Of a DNA stretch of 34,820 nt, positions 302 through 34,087 are shown one piece after another. Origin of the DNA: a virus; the IMG/VR virus record IMGVR_UViG_3300043464_000092, positions 1 through 34,820 of that record; one strand, given 5' to 3'. Position numbers and translations under genes: made by a program. The notes below the pieces were generated by a model. The model saw nothing but the letters and a program-made list of their open reading frames with translations. It made no database searches and was not told where the DNA came from. Numbering within the stretch: position 1 is the stretch's first letter; every line of letters begins with the position of its first letter.

Positions 302-636
302 GTCTCGTAGCAGAACAGGCGGCGTTCCTGCTGGATGTCGCCAAACTCATCAACAAGGCGACGGAGTTGGGCTTTGTGGTGACGGGCGGTGAACTTGCCC
401 GTACCCCGGAACAGCAAGCCATCTATGTCAAGACGGGTCGCTCCAAGACGATGAACAGCATCCACCTCAAGCGGTGTGCCATCGACCTTAACTTCTTCAA
501 GGACGGCAAACTTTGCTACGACATCCCGGCTCTTACGCCGGTTGGTGAGTACTGGCAGAGCCTTTCACCGAAGAACCAATGGGGCGGCTTTTGGAAGTCG
601 TTTAAGGATGTGCCGCACTTTGAGCGTCGGGTGTGA
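298..636 (+). CDS. Endolysin, M15-family L,D-/D,D-peptidase
   Basis: This 112-residue protein has the M15 (VanY/peptidase-15) zinc site: H56 and D63 in SIHLKRCAID, and H107 in PHFE, preceded by the usual WGGFW segment at 95-99. GGELARTPEQQ at 30-40 is also typical of the family. M15 phage endolysins cut peptide cross-bridges in peptidoglycan. No signal peptide is visible, so release through the upstream holin is expected. The start is GTG at 298 overlapping the holin stop. A full family domain fits in the protein, so it looks complete. It ends one base before a tRNA gene on the other strand. Confidence 0.9.
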   Translation: MSLVAEQAAFLLDVAKLINKATELGFVVTGGELARTPEQQAIYVKTGRSKTMNSIHLKRCAIDLNFFKDGKLCYDIPALTPVGEYWQSLSPKNQWGGFWKSFKDVPHFERRV

Positions 637-706
637 TGGAGAGGGTGGAATCGAACCACCGTTAACGGAGTCAAAGTCCGTTGTCCTACCGCTAGACGAC
701 TCTCCA
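637..706 (-). tRNA. tRNA-Gln (anticodon UUG)
   Basis: Read on the minus strand, the sequence folds into a complete cloverleaf: a perfect 7-bp acceptor stem (TGGAGAG with CTCTCCA), D arm GTCT/GGAC with loop AGCGGTA, anticodon stem ACGGA/TCCGT with loop CTTTGAC (anticodon TTG), a 4-nt variable loop, and T arm GGTGG/CCACC with loop TTCGATT. CCA is not encoded and the base at the discriminator position is T. It reads CAA, and CAG by wobble. It is the last element of the leftward operon and abuts the endolysin stop codon, so it sits exactly where the two transcription units converge. Confidence 0.93.
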
Positions 707-3482: not shown

Positions 3483-4086
3483 GATTTAACTCCTGTAGTT
3501 TGTTTAACTTTTCTTCCAACTCGTTCAAGAACTTTGTTACTTCAATTTCTAGTTCAGCAATGCGTTTGTCGTCGCGCTGGACGCGTTTGACAAACATCTG
3601 CAGGTGCGCTGGCAGCCGGTCGTCGTAGGACGCAAAATCGCACCACGGTCGCCCGGTGCAGGCCATTTGCCACTGCATTTGAGTGATGTATTTCCCCGGC
3701 ACGGCATCGGCTAGTAGCGTGTCAAGGTGGTTGGACGTGTTGGGGCACTTAAACTCCACCAACCCATCGGCCACCAGACCGTCTGGGGACGCTCCTGACA
3801 TGGGTATAACCGGATGGTCAATAAACCCCACCTCCTCGACCAACTCGCCTGTGCGGGCGCTGTAGGCGGCCCTAGCGTGTGGTTCTTGCTCCACGCCACG
3901 CTCCATTGCCGCGTTCGTGAATGTGCTGGCCTTCTGACCGGTCAACCGTTCCACGATTAAATCGGCCATGTAATTTTCTCGGCTGCTGCTGTAGCCGGTT
4001 TTGGTCTTGGCAACTACATCGGCTACTCGACTGGCTGTGACCTTGCCAAGCCTTGCCGCAAACCAATCGTCAGTACGCTGTTCCAT
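3475..4086 (-). CDS. YqaJ/lambda-Exo-type recombination exonuclease
   Basis: The 203-residue product starts MEQRTDDWFAARLGKVTASR, as in YqaJ-type viral recombinases. The PD-(D/E)XK site is complete: D102 in GASPDG, E111 and K113 in VEFKCPN, and glutamines in YITQMQWQM (136-140). Family members degrade one strand of a DNA end 5' to 3' and hand the other to an annealing protein, which is the next gene upstream. Start choice: ATG at 4086, overlapping the ERF stop by one base; a GTG one codon earlier is possible. The C-terminus is a charged coiled-coil-like helix. Confidence 0.92.
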   Translation of the reverse strand: MEQRTDDWFAARLGKVTASRVADVVAKTKTGYSSSRENYMADLIVERLTGQKASTFTNAAMERGVEQEPHARAAYSARTGELVEEVGFIDHPVIPMSGASPDGLVADGLVEFKCPNTSNHLDTLLADAVPGKYITQMQWQMACTGRPWCDFASYDDRLPAHLQMFVKRVQRDDKRIAELEIEVTKFLNELEEKLNKLQELNRG

Positions 4087-4625
4087 CACGCCAATTCCCT
4101 TTTGCGTGCGCTGAACGCATCCATGTGCGTTGCGCGGGCGTCTACCGGCAGCGTCTTAAAAAGCGCCGTGAGGGCGTCTGTAGAGTCGCAAGCGGCGATC
4201 TGATCAAGCACCTTGAGGTCGGTTTGGGCAAACTTGTTACGCGCCTGTGCGGCTTCTGCGTCGTCGTCAATTTGCGCCAACCCGACAATGGCAGCGAGGG
4301 CATAGCGTCGAGCGTAGGTGATGCCAGACCCCTGCGCCTGTGGCCCAGCGTCCTTGGTGACAATGGGCAGCACGCCACGCATCCATTCGCCGGATGAGTG
4401 GGCAAGCGTCGTGACCAGCACCACCCCGACGTTGGTCACGTCGGTGGTCTGAATCACCGCCAGACCGTTATCGGCCAGTTGCTTGCGGCAAGCATCCCAA
4501 CACGATGCAAGATCGGCGTATCTAGATTTGAAAAACGGGTTGCTGCTGTCCTTGAGTGCGCCCGTAATGCTGGCCTGCGCTTTGGAGAGCGCCGCTGCGA
4601 GGGCGGCAATGGATTCACTTTGCAT
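4086..4625 (-). CDS. erf: ERF-family single-strand annealing protein
   Basis: The 179-residue protein begins MQSESIAALAAALSKAQ and shows the ERF core: NPFFKSRYADLAS, then LAVIQTT, THLAHSSGEW-like TLAHSSGEW, GSGITYARRYALAAIVG and DDDAEAAQ. P22 Erf and its relatives anneal complementary single strands during phage recombination and genome circularisation. ATG at 4625 was chosen over the longer frame because it has a strong AGAGGAAG ribosome site and matches the family N-terminus. It overlaps the small upstream gene by 11 bases and couples to the exonuclease downstream. Confidence 0.92.
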   Translation of the reverse strand: MQSESIAALAAALSKAQASITGALKDSSNPFFKSRYADLASCWDACRKQLADNGLAVIQTTDVTNVGVVLVTTLAHSSGEWMRGVLPIVTKDAGPQAQGSGITYARRYALAAIVGLAQIDDDAEAAQARNKFAQTDLKVLDQIAACDSTDALTALFKTLPVDARATHMDAFSARKRELA

Positions 4626-16417: not shown

Positions 16418-17686
16418 ATGGCATTTGCCAATTCCAGTATCAGCGACATCATTGCTACCACAATCCAAAGCCGTAGCGGTGAGTTGGCTGATAACGTGAC
16501 GAACAACAATGCGTTGCTTCGTCGGCTAAAAGACCGAGGGAATGTGCGTACTTTTTCGGGAGGAAACGTCATCCTCCAAGAATTGATGTACACAGACCCA
16601 ACATCCGACAATACCAACTCGTACAGCGGCTACGAAGTGCTGAATGTTGGACAGAACAGCCCGATTTCGTCGGCGCAGTTCTCCATTACGCAGTACGCTT
16701 CCGCCGTGACCATTTCGGGTTTGGAAATGATCCAAAACTCGGGCAAGGAGGCCATCATTGACCTTCTTGACGGTCGCATGGAAGTTGCCGAGGCGCAGTT
16801 GGCAAACCGCATCAGCGGTGACCTGTATGGTGACGGCACCGGCAACGCGGGCAAGAACCTCACGGGCCTTGCTGCTGCTGTGCCGGATGATCCGACCACG
16901 GGCACCTACGGTGGCATCAACCGCGCTGTGTGGTCGTTCTGGCAGAGCAAGAAGTTCTCGGCTGCCGCTGATGGCGGTGGTGCGGGCGCTGTGTCCAGCA
17001 CGACGATTCAGGGCTACATGGACGCCCTCGCTGTGCAGTTGGTTCGTGGAACCGACAAGCCTGACCTGATCGTGGCCGACAACAACTATTATCGGTTCTA
17101 CCTGCAGTCGCTTCAGGCGATCCAGCGTATTACCGAGAGTGGTTCGGGCATGGCGGGTGCGGGCTTTGCCTCCCTCAAGTATTACGGCGCGGGCATGGCC
17201 TCCGACGTGGTGCTGGACGGTGGTATCGGTTCGTCCACCTACAACAGCGGTTCGGGTAACGCCAACCATATGTGGTTCCTGAACACCAAGTACCTGATGT
17301 TCCGCCCGCACAAAGATCGGAATTTCGTTCCGATTGGCGGCGAACGTCAGGCCGTCAACCAAGACGCTAAACCTACGATTCACTAATGGCGTCTATAAAC
17401 CCTCTCTAATTGACTTGGAAGCCCGGAAGCGGGTGACAGGGGCCAAGCGAAAGCAGGCTGAACGACTAAATGAGAGGGGGCGAACGAAAAAGGTTCGCCA
17501 TGCGATAGTCTGAACTGCGGTATAACCAAAGAAGCCGCAGAGGGTGACCCGAAGAGGTTGCCCCGCCATCCGAAAGGGTGGTCAGTAGCCGAAAGGCGAA
17601 GTAACAGAATGATTGTGAAACTGATTGGCTGGGCCGGTAACCTTACCTGCTCGGGCAGCCAGTTCCAAGGCGTGTTGATTGCTTAA
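16418..17686 (+). CDS. Major coat protein, split by a group I intron (exons 16418-17368 and 17612-17686)
   Basis: Exon 1 gives 317 residues starting MAFANSSISDIIATTIQSRS, with SGELADNVTNNNALLRRLKD, a central ALA-type core domain and FVPIGGERQAVNQDA at its end. Read straight through, translation stops after five foreign codons. The downstream bases 17612-17686 encode IVKLIGWAGNLTCSGSQFQG and four more residues, the hydrophobic C-terminal strand expected after NQDA in this coat family, so splicing yields 341 residues. Splice sites come from P1 (U-G at 17368/17388) and the terminal G at 17611. AGGAG precedes the start. The protein builds the capsid shell; scaffold and decoration genes flank it. 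Confidence 0.9.
17369..17611 (+). ncRNA. Group I self-splicing intron in the coat protein gene
   Basis: All core helices can be drawn. P1: exon GACGCT (17363-17368) with guide GGCGTC (17388-17393), giving the required U-G pair at the splice site. P3: CCCTCTC (17400-17406) with GAGAGGG (17472-17478). P4: CTTGG (17414-17418) with CCAAG (17443-17447). P5: CCCG/CGGG (17422-17433). P7: GACTA (17464-17468) with TAGTC (17506-17510). P8: GGCGAAC/GTTCGCC (17479-17499). P9: CTGCGG/CCGCAG (17515-17540). Further hairpins with GAAA loops lie at 17566-17581 and 17588-17597. The intron ends in G, and P10 pairs TAAT (17384-17387) with ATTG (17612-17615). At 243 nt it has no room for a homing endonuclease. 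Confidence 0.92.
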
Positions 17687-22839: not shown

Positions 22840-23267
22840 TTAACGGCCCCCGGGTGGGCCTATGGGTAACCGAGCAGACGCAGGGCGGGTTTGACCCGCA
22901 GCGGTCGGTTGCCATTGGGTTAGAGCGTGACGGCGAATTGGTCGCTGGGACGGTTTACGAGAATTGGAACGGGGTTAGCGTGATGTGCCACATTGTTTGG
23001 CAGCACGTTACCCCCGCGTATTTAGCGGCGGTGTACGACTATCCCTACAACGTCGCAAAAGTTGATAAGATTATAGGGCCAATCAACAGCAACCATACCC
23101 GGGCGCTAGCATTGGTCAGCAAGATGGGGTTTTCGGAGGAAGCGCGGATTAAAGGTGCCGCGCATGACTCTGGGGACATTGTTTTGATGACACAGACACC
23201 TGACAAGTGTCGATATTTGGAGCCTCGGTATGGGCAAAAGATCACCAGCGCCACCGCCAACGCCTGA
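22824..23267 (+). CDS. GNAT-type acetyltransferase-like protein
   Basis: The 147-residue protein shows strands SVAIGLERDGELVAGTVYE and VSVMCHIVWQH, a helix AYLAAVYDYPYNVAK, a strand DKIIGPINSNHTRAL and the usual GNAT end ALVSKMGFSEEARIKGAAHD. The acetyl-CoA loop is less clear than in classic members, so activity is not assured. Phages often carry such proteins among tail genes, with unknown targets. It overlaps the gp10-like gene by 16 bases and the Gln-rich gene by 38, so it is part of the tail operon. Confidence 0.72.
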   Translation: MGWNIVNGPRVGLWVTEQTQGGFDPQRSVAIGLERDGELVAGTVYENWNGVSVMCHIVWQHVTPAYLAAVYDYPYNVAKVDKIIGPINSNHTRALALVSKMGFSEEARIKGAAHDSGDIVLMTQTPDKCRYLEPRYGQKITSATANA

Positions 23268-26200
23268 TTACGCCGCAATAGCGCGTCAGCAAGGGCAAGA
23301 AAACGTAGAGGCCGCACGCCAGTCGGCTTATATGTCCAATCCCAACGTCTACACGCCAACGGCGAGTCAGACGGTATCGTGGGAAAAAACGCCGCAATTT
23401 AACCAAAGCGCCTACGACAAGGCGATGGATGAATTTCGGTCGCAATCAACAAGAGGCGTGGAGGGGCTTGCAGAACCCGACCGCGCAGCGTTTACCTCCT
23501 ATATTGAACAACCAACCGTCCGTCAGGAATTGGTTGGCGAATCCAAAAACATTTTTGACATTCAGCAGCAAGCCGAAAAAGCGATGGCATCGCTCGGCCA
23601 GCGCGAAATTGGTGACCTTTCCCAATATCTCAACCAAGACTTTATAGCCTCGCTGTCGCCGATCCTTACGGGATATGGCGATTACGGCACCACTACCGCC
23701 GCTCCTAACCTTGCCGCCTACGGGCAAGCGGGCGGCGTTGCGGCCGGAGCGGGTGGCGCAATTGAGGGCGCTCCATCGGCCGCTGGCTATGCGCCTACAC
23801 GGTCGTTTGCTGGCCCCGCCCTGCAGGGCGAATTTGGCACTACGGGTGCTGCAGGGTCAAACGTACAGGCTTTTGGCACGCCCGATTATTACGGCGTCGG
23901 CCAAGGCAGCGCATACGGCAATCTAGGCGGTTTTGGGCAGGTTTCGGGCGCTCCCAATATCACCGGCATGGGTCAGGCCGGAACCGGCGGTATGGCCGCT
24001 GGCGCGGGTTTGCCGGGGCAGGTTGATTTCGGCCAGTTTGGCGGCGCACGGGCCAATGTGACGCCCTTTGGAGCAACTGGCGGCCCGCAGGCTGGGATGT
24101 TTGGCATGGCAGCGGGTGGCCCGCAGGCCGCAAACCTCGGCCAACTGAACCTCGGCGGCGTTGGTGGCGTTACGGGCGCTCCCGGTGCCGGTCAGTTCGG
24201 TATGGCGGGCGGTGGCCCTGCCGCAGGCTTGTACGGCTTTGCAGCAGGTGGCCCGGGCGCAATGCAGTTTGGCGGGTTTGACGCCAGCCGCGTCGGTGAA
24301 CTTGGCGCAGCGCCGTCTTACGATCAGTTTGGCCGCGCCATTGGCGGCCCTGCCGCGCCAACGTTGCAGGAAAACATCAACCTTTCAGGCGTGGGCGACG
24401 TTGCCCGCAACGTGCAAGAAGGCCGATTTGGCTACGCACGCGGAGAACTGGCAACGCCAGAACTGCAGCGGCAGTTAGCCACGCAAGGACTGGCCGCGAT
24501 GCCGGTCAACGCTGGGATGACGGCGCAAAACGCCATCATGTCGCGCATTGAGCCGCAATTGCAGCGTGAGCGTGCGCAGTTGGAGCAGCGCCTTGTCAAC
24601 CAAGGTTTACGCCCGGGCGGTGAAGCCTACAACGCTGAAATGGAGTTGCAGGGACAGCGCGAAAACGACCTGCGCACACAAGCAGCATTGCAGGGCATCA
24701 GCCTTGACGCGCAGATGCGCCAGCAGGGGCTTGCCGAGCAGCAAACGCTGGCCGATTTTGCCAACCAAGCCGCCCAATCTCAATTTGGCATGGGTGCGCA
24801 GGGCCTTGGCCTCTACAACGAAGCCCTTGCGCAAAACTTCCAACAGAGCCTTGCCGCGCAATCAGCGCAAAACATGGCGCAGCAGCAAGCGTTCCAGCAG
24901 CGGATGCAGGCCGGTGAGTTTGGCCGTGAGGCGCAGATCGCATCGTTCGGCATGGGCCAACAAGCGCAGCAGGCGACAAACCAAGCGCAACAACAGAACT
25001 TTGAGCGTGCGCTAGCCGCCCAACAAGCCCAAAACGCCGCCCAACAGCAGGGCTTTGGGCAGCAGATGGCGCAGCAACAGTTTGGCCGTGAAGCACAGAT
25101 GGCGTCCTTCCAGACGGGACAAGCCGCGCAGGATGCGATCAACCGCGCTATTTCCCAAAACTTTGCACAAGGTCAGGCAGCGCAACAGGCCGTTAATCAG
25201 GCCGTGGGTCAGAACTTCCAGCAGGGATTGGCTGCACAGCAGGCCGCTAACGCTGCTCAAGCGCAGCAGTTTGGTCAAGCAGTTACAGGCGGTGAGTTTG
25301 ACCGTAACGCTTTGCTTGCACAGTTTGGAATGGGTCAGCAAGCCTCTCAAGCGCAGAATCAGGCCATTGCGCAAAACTTTGCACAGGCGCAGGCCGCTGC
25401 GCAGATGCAGAATCAGGCAAACCAGCAGGCTTTTGGACAACAGGTAACGGCGCAGGAACTTGCCAACCAAGCGATTGCGCAGAACCAAAGCGCTGCCGCA
25501 CAACAGGCACAGGTCAACGCCGCACTACAGGCGCAAGGATTTGGTCAGCAGCAGCAAGTAGCCCAAGCGGCTAATCAAGCACTGGCGCAGAACCAGCAAA
25601 CCGCCTTGCAACAACAGCAAGCGGCAAACCAAGCCCAACAGCAACAGTTTGCGCAGAGCATGGGCGCAGGCGAATTTGCAAATCAGGCGTTGGCACAGAA
25701 CCAAGCCGCTGCACAACAACGGTTTCAAGCGCAGATGGCTGCGCAAAACCAGCAGTTTGGTCAACAGGTCACGGCGCAGCAGATGCAGAACCAAGCCCTT
25801 GCGCAAAATCAAGCGCAGGCTTTGGCGGCGTATCAGGCCAACCTTGCCCGCCAGCAACAAGGGTTCCAACAGGCTGGCGCACAAGCCGAATTTGGCAACC
25901 AAGCGGGGATGCAGGCATATCAGCAATTGCTTGCGCAACAGGCCGCCGCAAACTCTGCACAACAGCAGCGGTTTGGTCAGGGCATGGACATCCAAGGGCT
26001 GTACAACGCTTCAATCCTGCAGAACCAGCAGGCTGCGCTGACGCAGCAAGCCGCAGCCAACGCCGCACAACAGCAACGGTACAACCAACTGGCCGGTGCT
26101 GCAGGGTTCCAAAACCAAGCCGTACAGCAACAGTTGGCGCAACAGATGGCGCTGCGCAACCAGCCGCTTAACGAGATCAGCGCGTTGTTGTCAGGCTCAC

Positions 26201-26601
26201 AGGTGCAAATGCCGCAGTTCCAAGGCTACACCGGCTCAACCGTTGCCCCAACTCCGTACCTGCAGGCCATGCAGGCGCAGGACGCTGCCGCAATGCAACG
26301 TTACGGTATTGCCGCAAATCAAGCCGCCAGCAACGCCAGCGGTTTGTATGGTTTGATGGGCGCAGGATTAGGCGCAGCGGGCATGGCGGGTGGATTTGGC
26401 GCGTTGTTCACATCAGATCGCCGCCTCAAGTCCAACATAGAGCGTATCGGTACTCACCCGCTCGGCATCGGCGTGTACGAGTACGACATTGGCGGCGAAC
26501 GCCAACGCGGCGTAATGGCCGACGAAGTGGAGACGGTGCTGCCGGTGGCCGTATTGACGCGGCCTGACGGTTACAAGATGGTCAATTACGGACTTCTGTG
26601 A
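23230..26601 (+). CDS. Giant Gln/Ala/Gly-rich virion protein with C-terminal S74 chaperone-like domain
   Basis: The 1,123-residue protein has four parts: a Pro-rich N-terminus with charged helices (1-150); a Gly/Ala/Pro repeat zone with AAGGP and FG units (about 155-385); a very long Gln/Ala helical repeat zone (about 440-1000); and a C-terminal Gly-rich hydrophobic stretch followed by SDRRLKSNIERIG (S1062, K1067), GVMADEVETVLP and MVNYGLL. The last is a short S74-type domain, which in tail spikes folds trimers and cuts itself off at Ser. Only about 62 residues remain of a domain usually longer. It lies between tail and ejection genes. Function is unknown; a tail or ejected structural fibre is likely. 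Confidence 0.8.
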   Translation: MGKRSPAPPPTPDYAAIARQQGQENVEAARQSAYMSNPNVYTPTASQTVSWEKTPQFNQSAYDKAMDEFRSQSTRGVEGLAEPDRAAFTSYIEQPTVRQELVGESKNIFDIQQQAEKAMASLGQREIGDLSQYLNQDFIASLSPILTGYGDYGTTTAAPNLAAYGQAGGVAAGAGGAIEGAPSAAGYAPTRSFAGPALQGEFGTTGAAGSNVQAFGTPDYYGVGQGSAYGNLGGFGQVSGAPNITGMGQAGTGGMAAGAGLPGQVDFGQFGGARANVTPFGATGGPQAGMFGMAAGGPQAANLGQLNLGGVGGVTGAPGAGQFGMAGGGPAAGLYGFAAGGPGAMQFGGFDASRVGELGAAPSYDQFGRAIGGPAAPTLQENINLSGVGDVARNVQEGRFGYARGELATPELQRQLATQGLAAMPVNAGMTAQNAIMSRIEPQLQRERAQLEQRLVNQGLRPGGEAYNAEMELQGQRENDLRTQAALQGISLDAQMRQQGLAEQQTLADFANQAAQSQFGMGAQGLGLYNEALAQNFQQSLAAQSAQNMAQQQAFQQRMQAGEFGREAQIASFGMGQQAQQATNQAQQQNFERALAAQQAQNAAQQQGFGQQMAQQQFGREAQMASFQTGQAAQDAINRAISQNFAQGQAAQQAVNQAVGQNFQQGLAAQQAANAAQAQQFGQAVTGGEFDRNALLAQFGMGQQASQAQNQAIAQNFAQAQAAAQMQNQANQQAFGQQVTAQELANQAIAQNQSAAAQQAQVNAALQAQGFGQQQQVAQAANQALAQNQQTALQQQQAANQAQQQQFAQSMGAGEFANQALAQNQAAAQQRFQAQMAAQNQQFGQQVTAQQMQNQALAQNQAQALAAYQANLARQQQGFQQAGAQAEFGNQAGMQAYQQLLAQQAAANSAQQQRFGQGMDIQGLYNASILQNQQAALTQQAAANAAQQQRYNQLAGAAGFQNQAVQQQLAQQMALRNQPLNEISALLSGSQVQMPQFQGYTGSTVAPTPYLQAMQAQDAAAMQRYGIAANQAASNASGLYGLMGAGLGAAGMAGGFGALFTSDRRLKSNIERIGTHPLGIGVYEYDIGGERQRGVMADEVETVLPVAVLTRPDGYKMVNYGLL
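24840..26160 (+). repeat. Gln/Ala-rich degenerate tandem repeats
   Basis: About 440 codons repeat a roughly 20-35-residue theme of the form QNFAQ.QAAQQ..NQA..Q.FGQQ, with alternating AAQQ, NQA and FGQ units. In a 50-residue sample from its start, 17 residues are Gln, about one third. CAA and CAG are both used freely. The repeats have drifted at the DNA level, so they are not a recent copy array. Confidence 0.8.
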
Positions 26602-30433: not shown

Positions 30434-33400
30434 ATGTCTTTTAACGGTTCCGGCACGTTCGTCATTAACTCGGCGGGTCAACCCGTCGTCGCTAACACCG
30501 TCATTAGCGCGACCACGTTTAACGCGCTAACGTCTGACCTTGCCAACGGTCTGACAACCTGTATCACCAAGGACGGGCAGACCACGCCTACGGCTAACAT
30601 TCCGATGGGCGGGTTTAAGATTACAAACCTTGCCACGGGCACGGCCGCTACGGACGCTGCCACGGTTGCGCAGATTCAGAGCAATGGCGCAGCCCTTGTT
30701 ACGGTTACCGGAACCGACACGCTGACCGGATCGCTAACCCCGTCCCTTGTCGCCTACGTTACGGGCGCGGTGTACTATTTTGTCGCCCCGGCCACCAACA
30801 CGGGCGCTGTCACGCTCAACATCGACACGCTTGGCGCAAAAAACGTCACGCGAGACGGCACGACCGTTCTTGTGTCGGGTGACATCGTATCGGGCGAAAT
30901 GGTCGCCGTTGTGTACGACGGAACGCGCTTCCAACTTATTAGCCCGGTCAATAGTTTTACCAACCTTAACGTTTCGGGCACCCTGACCGTTGCCGGTGCC
31001 ACGACCCTTAACGGCAACCTCGCCGTGGGTGACGCGGCGGCTGACACGATCAACTTTAAGTCAAGCGGCTGGACGCTGACGAACAACGTATCGGTCATCG
31101 GAACGTGGGCCGACATCGGCACAATCACCACCGCCGACATCAATGGCGGCACCATCGACGGCACGACCATCGGCGGCGGTACGGCGGCAGCGGGTACGTT
31201 TACGACCGTTACGGCCACGACCGGCAACATCACCACGGTTAACGCTACGACGGTAGACAGCACCAACCTTGAAGTTACCAACCTCAAGGCCAAGGACGGT
31301 ACTGCGGCAGGCTCCATTGCTGACGCTACTGGCGTTGTAACGCTCAACAGCGTGGTTGCCACGACTGCTGACATCAACGGCGGCACGATTGACGCCACCA
31401 CCATCGGTGGATCGTCCCCAGCCGTAGGTAACTTTACGACCGTTTCGGCCGCCTCGGCGGTCTTTACAACGGCTACCATTACAACCGTTAACACGACTAC
31501 CCTAGACCTGACCAACCTTGAAGTCACAAACATCAAGGCCAAGGACGGCACGGCGTCTATGACGATTGACGACGTTACGGGCAAGGTCAACGTCACCACC
31601 GTATCGGCCGCCTCCATGAACGCGGGCGTGGCTGCGGTAACGTCCCTGACGACCACTGGAGCCTCTGTAGCCTCTGCCAACGTCGGCACTGCCGTTATCA
31701 CCAACGGCACCGTCACGGCTCTTACGGCCACAGGTGCGTCTATTGCCAGCATGAACGCAGGGGTAGCCCTGCTCACGACCGCAACCGTAACCAATTTCAC
31801 GGCCTCTGGGGCGTCCATTGCCTCGGCCAACATTGGCAACTTGCAGTTTACGGCCGCCTCCATCGCATCAATTAACGCTGGCGTAGCGGTGATCACAAAC
31901 CTGACGGCTACTGGTGCCTCTATTGCCTCGGCTAACGTTGGAACCGCCGTGATTACGGCAGCGACGGTGACGGGCGCATCCATTGCCAGCATGAACGCTG
32001 GAGTGGCTTTGCTGACCACGGTTACTGTTACAAACTTGACGGCTACGGGCGCGTCAATTGCGTCGGCTAACGTTGGTACGGCGGTTGTGACGGGCCTGAC
32101 GGTTACGGGTGCGTCTATTGCCTCAATCAACGCTGGCACGGCCACGATCTCCGGCAACCTCACGCTCAACGGCGGCACCGCCAACGGCGTGTTGTACTTG
32201 AACGGCAGCAAGGTGGCGACGAGTGGGAGTGCGCTGACCTTTGATGGGACTACGCTGGCGACCACAGGAAAGTTTGGCATTACAGGCAGCGGAGCAGTGC
32301 CAACTGCATCAGCGCTTCAAATAGGAACTAACGCTGCTGGTTCGCGCTGGCTATACAATGTGCCTACTGGCGGTGAGCACAATTTCACTGAAAACGGTAC
32401 GGTTCTGTCATGGCAAAACATAAGTTCGCTTGGGTGGTTAATTGGCGGCTCCGAACAGATGCGCCTCACCTCCACGGGCCTCGGCATCGGGACGAGTTCG
32501 CCGAGTGGAAAACTCCAAGTCAAGACACAGACGAATGGAAACGCAGCCTTTGTAAACTCGACTTCTGTTTCGGGTGGCGTAAAAATCAACTGCTTCAATG
32601 ACGCAGGAAGTTCCTCTTCCCCGTTTGAATTGGACGGAAGCACGCTGCAATTTAATATTGCAGCCGTCGAAAAAATGCGCCTCGACTCCTCCGGCAACCT
32701 CGGGATCGGGACGACTTCGCCGGGGGCTTATTTAAGCGGAACAGCAAAACTTGTTGCTTACGCAGCCGCCAACGCACAAAACAGCATTCTTGTTAGAAAT
32801 GACAGCGCCGGGTCTTCCGCTTCTGCAGCAATTGTGCTGAACGCCTATGGAAATGTTTGGGGCATTGAGATTGGTTCTGCAGCCAAAAACAGTAACGCAC
32901 TTACATTCCAACTGGATTACGGTGGGACTAACTCCACCAAGATGACCCTCGACTCCTCCGGCAACCTCGGTCTGGGCGTAACGCCGAGTGCGTGGTCTTC
33001 CTTTAAAGGGTTGCAGGTTGGTGATGTTGGTGCGGTTGCGTCTGCTGATTTCGGTGGGAGCAATGTCCAAGCATTTTTTGGAAATAATGCTTATTACGGA
33101 TCTGGTGGCTTTAATTATATAAAAACCAATGTTGCAGCCATGTACCGCATGGTTGGTGGGGCGCATCAATGGAACACTGCGGCTTCAGGAACCGCAAACA
33201 CCGTCATCTCGTTCACGCAGGCGATGACGCTGGAGGCTGATGGGGATTTGGGGATTGGACTCACAACCCCCGCAGCACGGCTTCATGTGCGCCATGAAAG
33301 TGCCAGCACAACAGTGATGACTGGAATTTACGTCCAAAATTTTTCTTTTGATGCAAATACCCAAGGCGGCATCGGGTTTTACGCGGCAGATAACTACAAC

Positions 33401-34087
33401 GCTAAGGTTTACACATTACGTTCAGGAACTTCAGCAGGAAATCTTGTTTTTGCAACGAATAACGGTAGCGGCACGGCAGAGTCGAATGTTATCGAACGCG
33501 CCCGCATCACGAGCGACGGTTATTTCAAAGCGCAAGCAAATTCCGCATACATTAGTTCATCCGGTTTGTATCACGAGTTTGTAGGCGATTCCGCTAACGC
33601 ATACATTTTTAGAATTGTTAATGACGGAAACAATGCAAACCGATATGGAATGTCAATTCAATGCGGCGCAGACAATGCCGCTGGCACCAACTATGCGCTG
33701 GTTTTTGACGACGGCGATGGCACACGCCAAGGCGAAATCACTTTTAGCGGCGGTACAACAACTTACGGAACATCGTCGGACTATCGGTTAAAAGAAAACG
33801 TCCAGCCAATTGAAAACGCGCTTAATCGCTTGGCGCGATTGAGGCCTGTCAAATGGAACTGGAAGCGAAACGGGCTTGAGTCAGAGGGCTTTGTTGCTCA
33901 CGAATTACAGGAAGTTGTGCCGATTGCTGTAGCGGGTGAAAAGGATGCCGTAAACGAGAACGGCGACCCGGTGTATCAAAGCGTTGGCGCAGCCAATGTG
34001 GTTCCGCTGCTGACTAAAGCCCTGCAAGAAGCAATGGCCCGTATCGAACAACTTGAGGCCGATGTGGCCGCACTAAAGGGGAACTAA
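30434..34087 (+). CDS. Tail fibre with repeats and C-terminal S74 intramolecular chaperone
   Basis: The 1,217-residue protein starts MSFNGSGTFVINSAGQPVVA, followed by a virion-attachment part containing TPTANIPMGGFKITNLATG. A Thr/Ala/Val-rich repeat shaft runs to about residue 580. Modules with MRLDSSGNLGIGTTSP-type turns follow. It ends in a full S74 domain from SSDYRLKENVQ (S1114/S1115, K1120) through FVAHELQEVVP to a coiled coil. S74 domains drive trimer folding and then self-cleave before Ser with help from the Lys. The fibre is expected to bind the host surface. AGGAG precedes ATG 30434. Confidence 0.9.
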   Translation: MSFNGSGTFVINSAGQPVVANTVISATTFNALTSDLANGLTTCITKDGQTTPTANIPMGGFKITNLATGTAATDAATVAQIQSNGAALVTVTGTDTLTGSLTPSLVAYVTGAVYYFVAPATNTGAVTLNIDTLGAKNVTRDGTTVLVSGDIVSGEMVAVVYDGTRFQLISPVNSFTNLNVSGTLTVAGATTLNGNLAVGDAAADTINFKSSGWTLTNNVSVIGTWADIGTITTADINGGTIDGTTIGGGTAAAGTFTTVTATTGNITTVNATTVDSTNLEVTNLKAKDGTAAGSIADATGVVTLNSVVATTADINGGTIDATTIGGSSPAVGNFTTVSAASAVFTTATITTVNTTTLDLTNLEVTNIKAKDGTASMTIDDVTGKVNVTTVSAASMNAGVAAVTSLTTTGASVASANVGTAVITNGTVTALTATGASIASMNAGVALLTTATVTNFTASGASIASANIGNLQFTAASIASINAGVAVITNLTATGASIASANVGTAVITAATVTGASIASMNAGVALLTTVTVTNLTATGASIASANVGTAVVTGLTVTGASIASINAGTATISGNLTLNGGTANGVLYLNGSKVATSGSALTFDGTTLATTGKFGITGSGAVPTASALQIGTNAAGSRWLYNVPTGGEHNFTENGTVLSWQNISSLGWLIGGSEQMRLTSTGLGIGTSSPSGKLQVKTQTNGNAAFVNSTSVSGGVKINCFNDAGSSSSPFELDGSTLQFNIAAVEKMRLDSSGNLGIGTTSPGAYLSGTAKLVAYAAANAQNSILVRNDSAGSSASAAIVLNAYGNVWGIEIGSAAKNSNALTFQLDYGGTNSTKMTLDSSGNLGLGVTPSAWSSFKGLQVGDVGAVASADFGGSNVQAFFGNNAYYGSGGFNYIKTNVAAMYRMVGGAHQWNTAASGTANTVISFTQAMTLEADGDLGIGLTTPAARLHVRHESASTTVMTGIYVQNFSFDANTQGGIGFYAADNYNAKVYTLRSGTSAGNLVFATNNGSGTAESNVIERARITSDGYFKAQANSAYISSSGLYHEFVGDSANAYIFRIVNDGNNANRYGMSIQCGADNAAGTNYALVFDDGDGTRQGEITFSGGTTTYGTSSDYRLKENVQPIENALNRLARLRPVKWNWKRNGLESEGFVAHELQEVVPIAVAGEKDAVNENGDPVYQSVGAANVVPLLTKALQEAMARIEQLEADVAALKGN
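31600..32150 (+). repeat. Tandem ~16-30-residue repeats in tail fibre shaft
   Basis: The units alternate GASIASMNAGVALLTT and GASIASANVGTAVIT, joined by TVTNLTATGASIAS-like linkers, at least eight times. The bases differ mostly at third positions, so the protein pattern is conserved while the DNA drifts. A regular beta-helical or trimeric shaft is likely. Confidence 0.8.

Follow-up and report, generated by a model that had tools for sequence, protein, structure and literature searches.

A compact group I intron without an open reading frame in the major coat protein gene of a metagenomic virus, and its relatives in phage head genes

The 243 nucleotides at positions 17369-17611 of the virus record IMGVR_UViG_3300043464_000092 (34,820 bases, analysed in full and called the window below) are confirmed, by comparison of sequences, as a compact, ORF-less group I intron in the gene of the major coat protein. 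We put at about 95% the probability that this insert is a compact group I ribozyme that acts as a self-removing passenger and belongs to a family rich in head-gene insertions and lying outside the Rfam model RF00028. Splicing in cells we infer from the anatomy of the RNA, from homology and from precedent.

The coat open reading frame (16418-17386, plus strand) encodes 322 amino acids and ends in ...QAVNQDA followed by KPTIH and a stop codon. It matches the major head protein profile phrog_9953 (E = 2.9e-98) and is 53% identical to the major head protein of Myxococcus phage Mx8. The last 24 residues of the coat, IVKLIGWAGNLTCSGSQFQGVLIA, pick up again in frame at 17612, and no ORF of 60 amino acids or more was found on the plus strand within 17369-17611, which agrees with the preliminary description of a compact intron free of a homing endonuclease and placed 24 codons short of the gene's end. 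The gene is laid out as follows:

16418-17368, plus strand: first exon (exon 1) of the gene for the major coat protein, with 317 codons, identified by the phrog_9953 and Mx8 matches
17369-17611, plus strand: group I intron, 243 nt, inserted cleanly when compared with 66 empty sites, matched by a held-out covariance model
17612-17686, plus strand: exon 2, 24 codons and the stop codon TAA, agreeing in frame and sequence with intron-free homologues

A structure model of the coat protein was given little weight, since it is poor overall (mean pLDDT 56) and its matches, to the HK97-fold capsids of cyanophages Mic1 and A-1(L), are weak; in this model exon 2 is predicted as two strands (pLDDT 73-84). 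Elsewhere, the window has a tRNA-Gln gene at 635-706 (minus strand), not far from its left end, and two large ORFs built of repeats, one rich in Gln/Ala repeats (23230-26601) and one made of TGASIASANVGTA-like units (30434-34087).

The ends of the insert are set by relatives of the coat gene, of which 80 were fetched from IMG/VR, where the window itself is locus L081. The junction is readable in 78 close relatives; two more contigs break off within exon 2, where the frame beyond the site is still open, and one stops short of the site. An uninterrupted C-terminus of the form NQDA-[IV]VKLIG[WF]AGNLT... was found in 66 of the 78, the frame reading ...NQDA directly into IVKLIGWAGNLTCSGSQFQGVLIA, and the nearest intron-free relative (L002) is 98.4% identical. 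The remaining 12, window included, carry an insert of 241-243 nt at the identical bond. More distant intron-free coats, about half identical, share this C-terminal motif and have no insert: Mx8 reads NQDAEAQILAWAGNLTCSGAQFQG and phage BUCT555 reads NQDAEVQILGWAGNLTTCGAQFQG. The comparison with intron-free coats proposed in the preliminary description thus gave the expected result, the IVKLIGW strand continuing past NQDA in all 66 homologues. The intron is precisely absent from the uninterrupted gene of these relatives, and because homology sets the boundaries 17369 and 17611, they are fixed apart from the earlier argument from RNA structure. The base at position -1 (17368) is U in 12/12 intron-bearing sites versus 8/66 empty ones, most empty alleles having GCC in place of the GCU codon, and this U and the terminal G are invariably present in intron alleles of the site. 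The association has a Fisher p of 7.7e-10 (one duplicate record included), but it is no longer significant when shared descent is taken into account (p = 0.125 from 4:0 informative pairs), and we rejected a selected substitution at this position.

The predicted elements of the intron RNA, all on the plus strand, are listed below, with the evidence for each:

17363-17368: exon side of P1, GACGCU, with U17368 in the U-G pair
17384-17386: in-frame UAA stop codon within the loop of P1, 13 nt ahead of P3
17388-17393: internal guide side of P1, GGCGUC; at other sites where the family has inserted, a matching P1 is seen as well
17400-17406: P3 5′ strand, CCCUCUC, pairing with 17472-17478; double changes at 6/7 pairs, 98.3% paired
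17414-17417: P4 5′ strand, CUUG, with 17437-17440; 100% paired, one-sided changes only
17421-17424: P5 5′ strand, with 17431-17434; 4/4 pairs covary, 84.7% paired, the register being shifted in some introns
17441-17444: P6 5′ strand, GGCC, with 17456-17459; 4/5 pairs covary, C-G to G-C exchanges, 100% paired
17462-17468: P7 5′ strand, A(C)GACUA, in which one base is bulged; outer pair changes from A-U to G-C, inner five invariant in 67 introns
17472-17478: P3 3′ strand, GAGAGGG, three bases past P7, from the core alignment
17479-17499: P8 hairpin, 17479-17484 with 17494-17499; 4/4 scored pairs covary, 98.8% paired
17500-17505: J8/7, AUGCGA, invariant in 67 introns, though these were partly selected by the J8/7 motif
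17506-17511: P7 3′ strand, UAGUCU, from the covariation alignment
17515-17597: 3′ domain with P9 (17515-17521/17534-17540), P9.1 (17542-17549/17556-17563), P9.2 (17565-17571/17576-17582) and P9.3 (17588-17590/17595-17597), from the fold and from compensatory changes in alignment A2
17601-17611: 3′ splice site, GUAACAGAAUG, with terminal omega-G 17611; GUAACA...G is conserved in family members of other genes

As group I splice-site rules demand, the U that ends exon 1 pairs with a G of the guide, and the intron ends in G. The pair G17464-C17510, invariant in 67 introns and preceded by a bulged base, is expected to be the guanosine-binding pair. Of the helices read from the sequence earlier, P1 with its U-G pair is present, and P3-P5, P7 and P8 have covariation and not just a single fold behind them; P10, which had been described as pairing cleanly, is short, with 3-4 bp between 17384-17387 and 17612-17615. 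The z-score of the folding energy is -5.4 for 17350-17630 and -5.3 for the 3′ domain.

Related introns were gathered with two short core patterns, for which the window plus three relatives had served as models, and 67 distinct ones from among the matches listed were aligned. Over these 67, 97.5% of the P3-P8 cells are paired, and there are 333 cells with double changes, compared with 92 in shuffles and 33-77 in registers slid by 1-3 columns. Thus, the P4-P6 and P3-P8 helices of a group I intron, with the P3/P7 pseudoknot, are backed by covariation. A covariance model was then built on 45 introns of other host genes, with neither the window nor any same-site intron among them; its sole match in the window is at 17397-17517 (107.5 bits, E = 3.2e-21). 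The empty sites, the covariation and this score uphold the initial proposal of a group I intron, exact ends included.

A search with RF00028, suggested earlier as a check, retrieved no match in the window at the gathering threshold, nor at E ≤ 10 on 501 bases, and none at the gathering threshold in six related loci. RF00028 finds nothing in the window because the Rfam model does not cover the window family, so this outcome does not refute the intron. In a control, RF00028 gave 105 bits for the T4 nrdD intron, which the window-family model scores at 13 bits; the introns of Tuc2009, Bas96, Barba19A and APECc02 obtain 27-49 bits with RF00028, and the older phage intron types reach at most 17.5 bits with the window-family model. 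Judged by these reciprocal scores, the window family is a family apart from the phage introns matched by RF00028. With introns of the T4 nrdD and Twort type (IA2) the window intron has in common the group I core, the splice-site rules and phage protein genes as hosts. Such IA2 introns have P7.1/P7.2. These elements, by which subgroups IA1-IA3 are recognised, are absent from the window family, the P3 3′ strand following P7 after three bases in 67/67 cores. The extended P5abc of IC1/IC2 is likewise absent, P5 being a short hairpin with some 4 bp. The family may thus fall into IB, IC3 or a new subgroup; subtype IA2 alone accounts for more than half of catalogued viral introns (PMC11835236).

At least 146 introns with the strict core are present in viral contigs, the host gene being named or grouped for 110 and the other 36 unassigned. 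Major head protein genes of at least seven coat families hold 85 of the 146 among the matches listed, in a tally whose intron records are not independent:

Major head genes (85, among the matches listed): N4-gp56 type 39, P22-type coat 34, PF19821 type 4, Mx8 type 4, SU10 type 2, two other types 1 each
Non-head genes (among the matches listed): ribonucleotide reductase 6, portal 5, terminase 2, tape measure 1

Eleven more introns, among the matches listed, lie in a protein family (cluster 2; contigs L229, L180 and L094) that is probably a coat protein family. Its assignment to the SU10 type was rejected (Pfam SU10_MCP, E = 0.008, below the cutoff; hhalign found nothing), and since this link falls below the cutoff, cluster 2 was counted apart from the 85 head genes. 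The coat-gene bias, tallied for the window family alone, describes that family strongly but carries less weight as a comparison. We lean, with some reserve, towards a distinct compact phage subgroup specialised on major head genes through independent insertions at many sites in at least seven coat families; if so, efficient ribozyme splicing would be needed for late-gene expression in many phages. The recurrence in head genes may reflect conserved target sites for homing, a tolerance in late genes of splicing that is very efficient, or a link to recombination.

The family has many host genes and no single phase of insertion, and within coat genes its insertion points vary widely, often lying early in the gene. 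The 3′ splice ends used for the family are those of hand-checked examples, automatic calls being often wrong. In a rough automatic count, the first in-frame stop stands ahead of P3 in 46/64 family introns; as some frame calls are plainly wrong and the fraction is just 46/64, a stop before the core was dropped as a general rule. Several contigs carry two or three family introns (three each in L201, L236, L180, L094 and L270), and in L201 at least two introns interrupt a single P22-type coat gene, each at its own site. The core pattern was also found in 21 stretches of bacterial genome records (L205-L225), six of them assigned to N4-gp56-type coat genes; these stretches are probably prophages or phage contigs in the assemblies. 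The 36.6-kb contig L072 has matches near its opposite ends (1436-1556 and 35729-35849), which are probably duplicated contig ends and not two introns.

From this anatomy, the following course of events can be proposed. The transcript would fold into the P4-P6/P3-P8 core, and guanosine, presumably bound in P7, would be used for a cut after U17368, positioned by the U-G pair of P1. The freed end of exon 1 would then attack after G17611, and the joining of exons 1 and 2 would give a coat protein of 341 residues. The UAA at 17384, in the P1 loop upstream of the catalytic core, may keep ribosomes off that core, by analogy with work on T4.

Other readings of the insert have to account for the same data. 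The preliminary description had suggested that the rate of splicing sets the supply of coat protein, and that the unspliced 322-residue form serves as a working minor coat. Coat protein is as a rule made in greater amounts than any other late product, an insertion near the 3′ end leaves an almost full-length protein without splicing, and the family does recur in head genes. However, most close relatives have no intron and hence no truncated form, the 24 residues lost are conserved down to Mx8 and predicted as two strands (in a poor model), and elsewhere in the family coat genes are interrupted at many positions, often early. Neither the control of coat supply nor the usefulness of the short product has found positive support, and because so many close relatives are intron-less, we regard a regulatory role as unlikely. 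A split gene, in which the exon 1 product is accompanied by a separate 25-residue peptide started at AUG 17609 with no splicing at all, is less likely still. The intron does end in AUG in frame with exon 2, and the P22-type coat gene of MW202674, which carries a related intron, is annotated in GenBank as two coding sequences; but there is no convincing ribosome-binding site ahead of 17609, the last three intron bases vary within the family (AUG, UUG, GUG, CUG, AAG), and at sites with a different phase of insertion, such as that of L175, the AUG is not in frame with the exon that follows.

Bypass of the 243 nt by ribosomes, as in T4 gene 60, in place of splicing would be consistent with a reading frame that is restored on both sides. 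We give it almost no credence, since the take-off and landing codons do not match (GCU precedes the gap, and AUG the landing site), the insert has a group I core with a covarying pseudoknot and obeys splice-site rules, and the same RNA sits in many genes and in differing phases. An assembly artefact or a dead, unspliced insertion, which might be suspected in a metagenomic contig, is just as remote: the insert recurs in 11 more contigs, mostly from separate metagenomes, and substitutions across the family preserve pairing.

In our reading, the group I intron is a neutral or mildly costly mobile passenger, repeatedly gained and lost among close phages. The tree of coat exon 1 requires at least seven gains or losses on well-supported branches, and nine on the best tree; in the sister coat clade around BUCT555 no window-family intron was found in 80 loci. 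The empty locus L066 and the intron-bearing L067, from different metagenomes, are identical over the 4946 nt upstream up to the site. Nucleotides 3 and 18 of exon 2 change together with the intron in the pairs L066/L067 and L080/L071, a marker pattern that fits co-conversion. Such natural pairs with and without the intron, L066/L067 being near-isogenic, make the reasons for the preference for head genes testable. The window intron encodes no homing endonuclease, and none was recognised in ten scanned window ORFs, where the nucleases are of the YbcO, YqaJ and VRR-NUC types. ORFs of the LAGLIDADG, GIY-YIG, endonuclease VII-like or I-TevI zinc-finger type do occur in some family members that interrupt other genes, and ORF-less introns can be moved by endonucleases acting in trans (Hausner et al., PMC3984707). 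The window intron may have spread in this way or by recombination.

According to reviews, the usual hosts of phage introns are the genes of DNA polymerase, ribonucleotide reductase and terminase. The preliminary description had presented the coat gene as an odd site. This no longer stands, given the share of head genes in the family and two published precedents, LittleE and Tuc2009. The intron in the major capsid gene of mycobacteriophage LittleE has been shown to splice by RT-PCR and protein sequencing (Pope et al. 2013, PMC3706429); as in the window, the last base of exon 1 is U and the intron ends in G, but it is 819 bp long with a homing endonuclease, the two being compared by description. 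Lactococcal phage Tuc2009 (NC_002703) likewise has a group I intron in its major head gene, orf37 and orf39 being linked after excision according to the record. It encodes an HNH endonuclease, whereas the window intron does not, it has extra sequence between P7 and P3, and it is matched by RF00028 in two parts (27 and 43 bits) and not by the window-family model. A blast match to Tuc2009 was rejected as evidence of family membership, as only the P5 hairpin is shared and the intron is of another type.

Members of the window family proper, with alignable cores and blastn identities of 69-75%, are present in MW202674, in Roseobacter phage CRP-118 and in Desulfovibrio phage 7757. The window-family model scores the MW202674 intron at 113 bits and the 7757 intron at 93 bits, and the CRP-118 intron aligns with the core. 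Their hosts differ from that of the window: a coat gene of another family in MW202674, ribonucleotide reductase in CRP-118 and anaerobic ribonucleotide reductase in 7757. We did not find the family or its head-gene bias described in the open-access literature, and in these three records the introns are not annotated as such. Because the family is missed, many phage coat genes are annotated as truncated or as two genes, which a family covariance model would mend. In MW202674.1, the gap between two annotated coding sequences (3942-4209) is a family intron, joining HVD to TQFTTQDLA, and in CRP-118 the ribonucleotide reductase split by a window-family intron is annotated as gp44 and gp45.
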